A DNA stretch of 42,344 nt from Acidobacteria bacterium 5-1 (lineage in GTDB: Bacteria > Acidobacteriota > Blastocatellia > Pyrinomonadales > Pyrinomonadaceae). The stretch covers positions 1-42,344 of the forward strand of contig MWZA01000170.1 in assembly GCA_002050455.1 (NCBI GenBank), written 5' to 3'. Under the pieces are notes generated by a model. The model had not been told where the DNA came from and made no database searches. It saw only the letters and a program-made list of their open reading frames with translations. Within the stretch, counting starts at the first letter, position 1, and the number at the start of each line of letters is the position of its first letter. The position numbers and the translations under genes were made by a program. Of this stretch, positions 20,048 to 22,407 are shown piece by piece.

Positions 20048-20414
20048 ATGGTAAAAGCAGTTGAAGCATTAGAAAGTTCTCAATTAAACAGTCTTTCTCT
20101 GAAAAATAATTATGCTTTATTTTTGGGAAACACTTCATAAGTATTATCTACTTTTCCAAATGAATGTATTGATTGTGTAATTACTTCACCGCCATAATGG
20201 AAACTTCGGGAATATGATATTGAAAGCAATTCAGCATAAGACGAAATTGGAATCGAAGAAAATCCTCAAGATTATGTAACTAAGTTATCAAAAATTTTTC
20301 ACGAGATAAAACGAGTTCTAAAACCTAGCGGTTTCAGTTTGGCTGAACATTGGCGACAAATATCACAATAAAAATTTGATGGGAATGCCCTGGCGGGTTG
20401 CTTTGGTAATCTAA
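20048..20414 (+). pseudogene. Site-specific DNA methyltransferase remnant
   Basis: An ATG at 20048 after AAGGAG starts MVKAVEALESSQLNSLSLKN NYALFLGNTS and meets a TAA. Read through, the frame gives VLSTFPNECIDCVITSPP-stop-WKLREYDIE, the SPPYW catalytic motif of N4-cytosine/N6-adenine methyltransferases with Tyr changed to a stop. A third TAA follows, then DEIGIEENPQDYVTKLSKIFHEIKRVLKPSG. A one-base shift at about 20335 restores SVWLNIGDKYHNKNLMGMPWRVALV. The C-terminal part is absent. It is a dead partial methyltransferase. Confidence 0.82.
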
Positions 20415-20441
20415 CTAAAATCAAGTTAAGAAATAACACTT

Positions 20442-21353
20442 ATGCCAAATTTATATGTGAATGATTTACTTGCGAAAATTCAGCAAGACTTCGGCAAAGT
20501 TCGCAAACTCGGAAATGGAAATTCACTTTACCAAATCATTTCAAATGAAGTTATTATTTATTTCAGATACTCAAAAATTCTTCCAAGCGGTAAATCTACA
20601 AAGGCGTTTTACGGGTTGCGAAATGAGGAGTTAAAATTGATGCAAGCAAGCAAATCTTTTATTTGTTTTGTTTGGGATAATGAAACCTCGCCTATTTTAT
20701 TTCCCTTCAGTCACTTTGAGGCACATCTAAACGAAAACGCTAGTTTGGCTTATGACGACCATTACAAAGTAACAATACTTTTCAATCCGACAGGAACAAT
20801 TCTAGCTATTCCGAATGTCGGAAAATTTAGCATAGATAGCTTCTACAGTTTGAGTGAACTTTATAACATTCAAAGCAAAAATATAATTATACCTGAGATT
20901 TCTCATTCAAAGATGCAGTCAATTATCGGTGTGATTGGTATGAAAAAAGGCTTTGATATTTGGATACCAGCAAGTGACCGCCTAGCTTTAGATTATGCAA
21001 TCTTAACAAACGAAAAAATGCGCTCCCAACTTCCTTTTTATAACAATGAAATATTGGATGTTATTTGTGAAATAGATGTAATTTGGCTTGAAAATACTAA
21101 ACCCGTCAGTTTTTTTGAAGTTGAACATTCAACGCCAATTTATTCAGGATTATTACGTTTTAATGATGTATTTCTGACTGTCGCGGACACCAACAATTTT
21201 AATATCGTTGCTGAAAGTGAAAGAGAAACTAAATTTGTAAAAGAAATCCAACGCCCAACTTTCAGACAAAACAAACTAAATGAAAAAGTTGCATTTCTCA
21301 ATTACGAAAATGTTTATCGGTGGTTTTTAAATACCGTTGATTATCAGATTTGA
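20442..21353 (+). CDS. Putative restriction endonuclease-like protein
   Basis: This 303-residue intact protein starts 27 bases after the methyltransferase remnant. The C-terminal part has DVICEIDVIWLENTKPVSFFEVEHSTPIYSGLLRFNDVFL, an Asp followed by an E-x-E on a beta strand, reminiscent of PD-(D/E)XK nuclease cores. The N-terminal half (LAKIQQDFGKVRKLGNGNSLYQIISNEVIIYFRYSKILPSGKSTKAFYGLR) could be a DNA- or ligand-recognition domain. The neighbour is a methyltransferase relic, which supports a restriction role. I am not certain of the family. AT-rich codon use differs from the flanking genes, which suggests transfer. Confidence 0.5.
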   Translation: MPNLYVNDLLAKIQQDFGKVRKLGNGNSLYQIISNEVIIYFRYSKILPSGKSTKAFYGLRNEELKLMQASKSFICFVWDNETSPILFPFSHFEAHLNENASLAYDDHYKVTILFNPTGTILAIPNVGKFSIDSFYSLSELYNIQSKNIIIPEISHSKMQSIIGVIGMKKGFDIWIPASDRLALDYAILTNEKMRSQLPFYNNEILDVICEIDVIWLENTKPVSFFEVEHSTPIYSGLLRFNDVFLTVADTNNFNIVAESERETKFVKEIQRPTFRQNKLNEKVAFLNYENVYRWFLNTVDYQI

Positions 21354-21566
21354 TTATTCGGCTTCTTCAACATCATAAAGTTCGATTTCTTCAACTTCTT
21401 CACACAAAGTTTCGCCAAACTCAAATTCGAGTTCGCGTGGTGGGTCGTCCCAATCAAACCTTTTCAATCGGTTCGATGCTTTTTCTTCGGTTTCATCATA
21501 AACAACAAAATGGTTTAATTGAATGTATTCGTATCTCAAAGTCCCGCGAAATGTAAATTTTTTCAT
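21354..21566 (-). CDS. Small acidic hypothetical protein
   Basis: This 70-residue protein begins MKKFTFRGTLRYEYIQLNHF and ends in a strongly acidic tail (EFGETLCEEVEEIELYDVEEAE). It is convergent with the endonuclease-like gene, the two stops being adjacent. An AGGAGG lies 17-20 bases upstream of the ATG, too far for a good ribosome-binding site, and belongs to the end of the NotI-like pseudogene. No family is recognised. The sharp change from the endonuclease relic suggests a recombination junction here. Confidence 0.5.
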   Translation of the reverse strand: MKKFTFRGTLRYEYIQLNHFVVYDETEEKASNRLKRFDWDDPPRELEFEFGETLCEEVEEIELYDVEEAE

Positions 21567-21574
21567 AATTGATT

Positions 21575-22093
21575 TTACCTGTTTCCTCCTAATTTGTAAG
21601 AATCCTTTTGAAACTTTCCATGTTTTTTCAAATCAAGAACGGCTTGCCAAGGCGAGCCTGTTGTTCCTGCTGCTTGAAACTCTACACAAAGAAAATCATC
21701 AATTTCATTATCAACAATTTCAGCCGCAACAAAATCAACATTGCCACCAACTCCAATACTGACTTCTCTTACCCATTTAACATTCTGCCATTGTGCAAAT
21801 AATTTTGTTGTATAGTTTGAAAAATTATACTCGTATCAAAACGATGCGGACATATAATTACAGGCAAAGCTCTCTTCAAAAATTTGCCTTTATATCCAAC
21901 GCTGTTTGCCTTTATATCCAACGCTGCAAGTTCCAATCTTTATATGAGGTTCGCTTTTTCGCGGTTTCTTACACTCTGTTTTAAGAAATGAACAATATTG
22001 ATTTTCTAAATCATCTTTTGCTTGTTTAGTTTGTTCCGTATAAGGATGACCAAAAATCTCAGTTGGAAATTTGGAAATAAAAGGTTCTTTCAT
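21575..22093 (-). pseudogene. NotI-like type II restriction endonuclease, broken
   Basis: From the ATG at 22093: KFPTEIFGHPYTEQ, then CSFLKTECKKPRKSEPHIKIGTCSV, and after repair ALPVIICPHRF. This Cys spacing and the FGH-start match the iron-binding N-terminus of NotI-type enzymes. A 22-base tandem duplication shifts the frame into a stop. A second frame change near 21810 leads to KWVREVSIGVGGNVDFVAAEIV, then DDFLCVEFQAAGTTGSPWQAVLDLKKHGKFQKDSYKLGGN, the catalytic region. It is truncated at 21575. Two frame-breaking lesions and the lost C-terminus make it inactive. Confidence 0.72.
21883..21926. repeat. 22-base perfect tandem duplication
   Basis: TTTGCCTTTATATCCAACGCTG occurs at 21883-21904 and again at 21905-21926 without a mismatch. 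Its length is not a multiple of three and it breaks the NotI-like gene. Perfect identity indicates a recent event. Confidence 0.95.
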
Positions 22094-22407
22094 AGTTTTT
22101 AGATTATATAATAACTGAAATTACGCAAAGCAAGTTAAGTATAGTTTATTGAGTGTGTTACAAACTCAAATAAGCAAAAGTAATCGCTAATTGAAAAAGC
22201 CAACTGTTGAAATAACACTACTTGGAAGCTGTTTGAAAACTCGCAGAGCGAAGGTAACACCAGCAACAAATGGATGAAAATATACAAGATTATTATCGCA
22301 AATAAAAATTGTTATAATTAAACGAAGATGTTAACTGTTTTCCGCTAACAGAAAAATATTTTGAGATTTTAACAAACAAAACTGAAATCTTTTTGAGGAA
22401 AAAATTT
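22094..22407. other. Gene-free AT-rich interval
   Basis: No reading frame or RNA fold that I recognise is present. A GTTATAAT at 22311-22318 could be a -10 box for rdgB, with a poor -35. A small CTGTT/AACAG hairpin occurs in the leader near 22335-22351. Confidence 0.4.

Follow-up and report, generated by a model that had tools for sequence, protein, structure and literature searches.

How an intact endonuclease-like gene can persist beside a dead DNA methyltransferase (MTase) is the question raised by a locus of Acidobacteria bacterium 5-1. Loss of the MTase of a restriction-modification (R-M) system with an active endonuclease left behind should kill the cell, which makes such an arrangement look paradoxical. 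The locus lies in a stretch of 42,344 nucleotides, analysed as a whole and hereafter called the window, which corresponds to contig C20 in a draft genome, G000, of 3.2 Mb (79% complete, 223 contigs). Its features are as follows.

20048 to 20411, plus strand: relic of an MTase of the beta-class SPPYW type, first part only (Pfam, PADLOC, tblastn)
20138 to 20140, plus strand: first TAA within the relic frame (read from the sequence)
20195 to 20197, plus strand: second TAA, at the Tyr position of SPPYW (read from the sequence)
20237 to 20239, plus strand: third TAA within the relic frame (read from the sequence)
20332 to 20334, plus strand: +1 frameshift of the MTase relic (homology segment ends at 20332 and resumes at 20334)
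20442 to 21353, plus strand: intact 303-codon gene; N-terminal domain 1-149, predicted C-terminal PD-(D/E)XK-like domain about 150-300
21354 to 21566, minus strand: 70-codon acidic ORF (pI 4.4), convergent to the 303-codon gene
21577 to 22099, minus strand: relic of a NotI-family endonuclease that has lost its C-terminal half, the one next to the candidate cassette with the 303-codon gene (tblastn, PADLOC)
21883 to 21926: 22-bp tandem duplication within the NotI-like relic (copies at 21883 and 21905)

In the frame opened by the ATG at 20048, the MTase relic reads ...ITSPP*WKLREYD..., and its decay is as the preliminary description had it: three in-frame TAA codons (20138, 20195, and 20237), one of them in place of the Tyr of SPPYW (20195-20197 reads SPP*W), a frameshift (a +1 jump between 20332 and 20334), and no C-terminus, with homology to residues 21-112 of a 349-aa full-length MTase that ends at 20411. 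The relic is matched by Pfam (N6_N4_Mtase, E=1.4e-4), PADLOC (MTase_II, 6.6e-18), and tblastn with the MTases of loci L151 and L164 as queries. An alternative genetic code was rejected as the reason for the three TAA codons because the frameshift and the missing C-terminus would still be unexplained. Frames of at least 285 aa are present in 33 of the 38 order-wide matches of this MTase.

A second relic, overlooked by the preliminary description, lies 1.2 kb from the first on the minus strand and is NotI-like. In it, 143 residues at 22099-21647 align with residues 4-146 of a 328-aa relative; the frame, readable to 21577, is broken by the 22-bp tandem duplication and two stops, and PADLOC reports REase_II (E=0.0047). 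Both relics lack the half that faces the 303-codon gene, and tblastn found the missing halves nowhere in the whole window. The 70-codon acidic ORF, for which the loci searched hold no relatives, lies between the NotI-like relic and the 303-codon gene. Of 119 genomes from the order, 4 match the NotI-like relic, one being the genome of the window itself; the best match, on G105:C140, shares its contig with a full-length relative of the MTase relic. At four NotI-family loci that we read, an SPPYW MTase is followed in tandem by the endonuclease: L151 (a 349-residue SPPYW MTase frame overlapped by a 328-residue NotI-like frame), L153 (the end of an MTase and a 309-residue NotI-like frame), and the plasmid loci L164 of Klebsiella and L165 of Acinetobacter sp. 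NEB 394, in which an annotated MTase precedes a NotI-family endonuclease. The NotI-like protein is matched by nine plasmid records, and four of the best eight plasmid matches of the MTase relic are records holding NotI-family endonucleases; the Klebsiella and Acinetobacter records rank among the top matches of that relic. The second segment of the MTase relic has the short loop seen in L151 (71% identity) and L153 (65%) whereas in most other SPPYW MTases the spacing is 41-47 residues; the L056 MTase, which is paired with another partner, has the short loop too (62.5% to the relic). In Sphingobium, a NotI-like gene is paired with a cytosine MTase instead, so the SPPYW-NotI pairing is common, not universal. 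A third NotI-like locus, L152, adjoins frames that by eye are D12-like MTase and ATPase-like.

Lying side by side, the two relics match the pairing of NotI-family R-M systems (RsrI-like SPPYW MTase and NotI-like endonuclease). Unlike those systems, in which both genes are open and M precedes R on one strand, the window genes are dead and truncated through stops, frameshift, duplication, and missing halves, the R relic is inverted relative to the MTase relic, and an unrelated intact gene stands between them. From these sequence comparisons we conclude that both relics probably stem from one NotI-family R-M system, with the reservation that the inverted R relic obliges us to allow for a further rearrangement or for two separate systems. 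The preliminary description had taken the dead MTase as the partner of the 303-residue protein; this is probably wrong, as the nearest named relatives of the relic include NotI-family MTases and a NotI-like relic lies so close to it.

The 303-codon gene itself runs from 20442 to 21353 without stop or frameshift, undamaged as first described. Pfam and NCBIfam scans of its product returned no match, including no modification-reader domain recognized by Pfam, and convincing sequence relatives were not found in the PDB. The PADLOC REase_II profile PDLC03534 matches its C-terminal domain (E=7.7e-9, residues 152-277) and that of 9 of the 10 relatives scanned; the match spans only positions 175-310 of the 351 in the profile, the N-terminal domain is unmatched, and there is no MTase partner. 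An AF2 model of residues 132-303 (172 residues; pLDDT 84, pTM 0.80) has the elements H24-37, E41-43, E82-86 (bearing D212), E89-96 (E226 and E228), H102-115, and E122-126, the alpha-beta-beta-beta-alpha-beta order of the PD-(D/E)XK fold, in which strands two and three carry the acidic residues. The core proposed at the outset as the target for structure prediction is thus present in the modeled C-terminal domain, and the endonuclease likeness stands as a prediction based on the PADLOC match and this order of elements. VIA ranks nucleases first for the model: EcoT38I (Z 8.6, rmsd 3.0, 115 aligned), then Nt.BspD6I (8.4), PaqCI (7.5), BamHI (6.2), and MspJI (6.1), with Z near 8 being borderline by the tool's own note; Foldseek against the PDB gave no match at E<=0.001 for the whole-protein or the C-terminal model. 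D212, E226, and E228 are invariant among 30 aligned sequences (one row of a 15-sequence set has K at 226) and conform to the catalytic pattern D...(D/E)-x-K/E, with Glu in place of Lys as at the catalytic site of BamHI. The whole-protein model is poor (pLDDT 57); its N-terminal half finds PD-(D/E)XK enzymes as its best VIA rows (Z up to 8.0) and may be an inactive second copy of that fold. A match of this half to Eco15I/NhoI was dropped as a sign of methylation reading, since the region matched is, according to PMC11347163, their catalytic domain. An EVE domain (PF01878, 3.3e-7) is fused to the nuclease domain in the cousin at L093 only. Taken together, the 303-residue protein is probably a nuclease with a modeled C-terminal PD-(D/E)XK-like domain, belonging to a family without a name.

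If this protein were the partner of an MTase, an intact MTase might be expected beside its relatives. We sought MTases within 3 kb of family genes with profiles built in this analysis and with PADLOC results. The preliminary description had noted that the 303-residue gene lacks an intact neighboring MTase and had proposed a search for homologue pairs: a full-length MTase lies within 3 kb of a 303-type gene at none of ten places, among which the flanks are short at L143 (663 nt upstream), L159, L109, and L110. Thus, the cognate intact MTase that should adjoin a type II endonuclease gene is present at 0/10 places found, and the 303-type gene stands alone without a cognate MTase, as type IV genes do. 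Pieces of MTases are frequent instead, lying near the 303-type gene in 4 of the 10 places (the window, L092, L109, L110), near all four cousins with a related N-terminal domain (L020, L028, L032, L091), and near 7 of 13 cousins with a short N-terminal region, one of the seven being full length (L025, a DpnII-type system). We take this short region, by eye, to be HARE-HTH-like; Pfam found no match in the two such cousins scanned, L021 and L002. With the three groups combined, an MTase is near 15 of 27 genes, and 14 of the 15 are truncated (Fisher p=6e-8 against the 33/38 long frames above, a rough yardstick not matched for MTase type); these loci are not independent, MTase types being common to L026/L029/L031, to L028/L032/L091, and to L022/L024. 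In seven loci (the window, L020, L022, L024, L029, L031, L132), the stump ends 0-62 bases from the family gene. Several 303-type places also adjoin other restriction debris, and BglII-like endonuclease frames follow the 303-type gene at L142 (5699-6259) and L110 (3380-4081), both matched by PDLC03442 and the latter by PF09195, with no intact MTase nearby.

These neighborhoods bear on the possibility that the dead MTase did have the 303-codon gene as its genuine endonuclease partner, and that a different MTase with identical specificity shields the host. The MTase relic and the 303-codon ORF are adjacent on the same strand, and the genome is rich in MTases: PF01555 finds 21 matches, of which 6 have stops, PF02384 finds 8, and PF00145 finds 1, and many of the PF01555 and PF02384 matches keep long open frames, so protection in trans is possible there. 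Cousin genes and neighboring stumps diverge at like rates (68% versus 64%, 82% versus 83%), as cognate pairs would, although common descent suffices to explain this. Against it, NotI-like endonucleases are the partners of this MTase subfamily and the relic of one is at hand, the 303-type gene lacks a full-length MTase within 3 kb at all ten places, and the stumps that adjoin family genes are of unrelated types. We therefore regard a true partnership as unlikely.

Direct evidence for another history comes from sister genomes that carry cousin genes. The stump type of L029, L031, and L026, here called M1, was matched in 16 of 118 genomes, seven of them by distant matches only (30-45% identity). 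It is full length (frames of 255-316 aa) in all six genomes without a cousin at the locus (G051, G073, G069, G029, G033, G041; the flanks of L173-L175 are only 1.5 kb) and truncated in all three with one (G058, G066, G055). In G051 and G069, M1 is accompanied by an R-like frame (305-308 residues) and by M2, another MTase frame; G073 has this arrangement as far as its contig reaches. In G058, a cousin gene and a transposase-like ORF, which we take by eye to be TnpA-like, stand in place of everything between M1 codon 118 and M2 codon 147; in G066, M1 codon 76 to M2 codon 237 is replaced, and the cousin gene points in the opposite direction. In both, the cousin gene is flanked by a 5' stump of M1 and a 3' stump of M2, the breakpoints being different, and among the sister loci compared these two alone (L189 and L188, respectively) match the family. 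A family member has thus taken the place of the R-M core on two occasions that differ in structure.

The anatomy of the window, an M stump, an intact family gene, and an R stump, is the same as that of these replaced loci. An unreplaced sister allele of the window locus itself was not found, and the cousin gene of G058 and G066 has an N-terminal domain other than that of the 303-residue protein; replacement at the window is read by analogy. A homing-type insertion, which would have left the 3' half of the MTase on the far side of the gene, was rejected: the missing halves are absent from the window and the far flank in G058 and G066 is an M2 stump, so replacement fits better. Terminal repeats that might mark a cassette amount to weak short repeats. 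G073, G029, and G033 have another family gene elsewhere in the genome alongside intact M1, which does not support a general clash of the family with methylation. In L173 and L174, the same M1 is followed by genes that differ by genome, some with HNH-like motifs by eye, and R genes appear to have been exchanged beside a constant M1.

Neutral decay offers another account, in which the locus is a graveyard within a decaying defense island and the 303-codon gene is merely not yet hit. Two R-M relics stand side by side here, 6 of the 21 PF01555 matches of the genome have stops, and several 303-type places adjoin other debris. Yet the MTase relic has taken 3 stops with 50 one-step paths to a stop remaining, whereas the 303-codon ORF has taken none of 137; about 8 would be expected at the rate of the relic (Poisson P about 0.0004). 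In an NC10 pair (L106/L159), 117 codons of the 303-type gene have 16 synonymous versus 5 nonsynonymous changes (dN/dS 0.09; Fisher p=5e-7 with rounded site counts), and the catalytic residues are invariant in 30 sequences. An intact 303-codon gene between decayed stumps implies selection for it, making neutral decay improbable. Five more PF01555 matches with internal stops, on contigs C30, C95, C128, and C153, point to R-M decay being common in this genome. In the same NC10 pair (L106 1263-2477), synonymous divergence is 0.21 in the 303-type gene and 0.02 in the genes directly downstream, as if that gene alone had been swapped by recombination; the L106 genome has no PF01555 or PF00145 match and five PF02384 pieces.

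That the family is instead an accessory third R-M component, such as a helper or guard retained after loss of M and R, is very unlikely: intact DpnII-type M and R do directly precede the cousin gene at L025, L142 and L110 keep a BglII-like endonuclease downstream, and a small ORF of 60-70 residues follows in L106, L109, L141, and L142, but most members outside these groups are solitary, with an MTase within 3 kb in only 1 of 41 EVE-type and 430-residue-type loci, many of whose flanks are short.

We thus favor, with a probability of about 60%, the explanation that a NotI-family R-M system was overwritten by a cassette with a stand-alone predicted restriction nuclease. The R-M system would first have occupied the locus; the cassette with the 303-codon gene would then have replaced its core, taking the 3' parts of the MTase and endonuclease genes. 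R and M would have been lost in one change or in close succession, and with both lost together no unprotected endonuclease would have remained; both stumps would then have decayed while selection kept the 303-codon gene. The paradox dissolves under this replacement because the endonuclease of the MTase would be dead too and the intact gene would come from another family. The most likely role of the 303-residue protein is that of a restriction nuclease of two domains that acts alone, possibly modification dependent, whose N-terminal domain would read DNA and whose C-terminal PD-(D/E)XK-like domain would cut it via D212/E226/E228. As for why the host is spared, the absence of an intact MTase beside the 303-type gene everywhere it was seen makes it most likely, at slightly less than even odds, that the predicted nuclease acts in the manner of type IV enzymes and needs DNA that is modified or foreign in some other way. 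Protection through a different MTase, of which this genome has many, is rather unlikely, and the remaining probability goes to a protein that is inactive or regulated otherwise.

Close relatives of the 303-residue protein (33-39% identity) come from Acidobacteriaceae (L092/L108), Acidobacteria gp2 (L109), NC10 (L106 and, at a contig edge in a closely related genome, the piece L159), Deltaproteobacteria (L107 and, in two pieces, L110), and further genomes (L141, L142, L158). The 303-type occurs in 3 of 395 genomes of the phylum of G488 (where ten genomes match, seven by the nuclease domain only), 3 of 95 of that of G487, and 1 of 3 of that of G490. A contig scan of genomes with the 303-residue protein as the single query gave no match, nor did the phage collection; viral contigs hold three EVE-type cousins and none of the 303-type. 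Among plasmids, 170 records match the nuclease domain only and none covers 80% of the query, with a similar outcome for the L109 query. At L110 (662-3483), about 1.7 kb with a membrane-protein-like ORF separates two parts of the 303-type gene, through insertion or an assembly fault. A small ORF (VVxVWRGF...) directly follows the gene at L106 (1572-1802), L109 (5899-6096), L141 (6865-7074), and L142 (5477-5695); it is frameshifted in L107 (the L106 and L107 copies being recognized by eye) and absent from the window. The idea that the small ORFs are a single antitoxin family was rejected, as they form separate families with pI 4.2 to 9.5. Cousins of 430 residues on plasmids (L035-L038, L086-L090) are annotated as 'type II restriction endonuclease' or hypothetical and lack any MTase; in seven of the nine loci read (Novosphingobium, Sphingomonas, Rhodococcus, Fibrella, Cupriavidus, Caulobacter, Bradyrhizobium) they sit amid copper/heavy-metal resistance genes or a CopY-family regulator, and an Enterococcus locus has DUF2933 ORFs, as does that of Cupriavidus.

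Parallels exist among described systems. In PMC11037411, the PD-(D/E)XK-winged-helix type IV family consists of stand-alone genes, and in some cases a frameshift is reported to have inactivated a 4mC or 6mA MTase immediately next to them. The present family resembles it in both respects and has a cousin with an EVE fusion; the N-terminal domains differ, and for the 303-residue protein modification dependence is a prediction. R-M gene replacement is likewise already known: PMC4615327 describes, for the PabI family, hrgC, and hrgA, an R gene replaced and the neighboring M disrupted at one locus among related strains, as here. The difference is that the incoming gene in our case belongs to a solitary nuclease family that recurs at unrelated MTase types. 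In searches covering mostly openly available literature, we found no published account of the 303-type family or of its recurrence inside decapitated MTase genes.

These findings warn that neighboring restriction genes should not be paired by adjacency alone, and the sister genomes with unreplaced alleles allow a direct test of whether solitary nucleases take over R-M loci. A bolder and rather unlikely reading is that the family is mobile, a restriction gene without a partner that overwrites R-M loci as it spreads. It would settle preferentially at sites in which it destroys the MTase (and R) on arrival, because with methylation still in place the host itself would be attacked. If this were true, the beheaded MTases, of unrelated types and in several lineages, would be the footprint of takeover by a methylation-dependent competitor.
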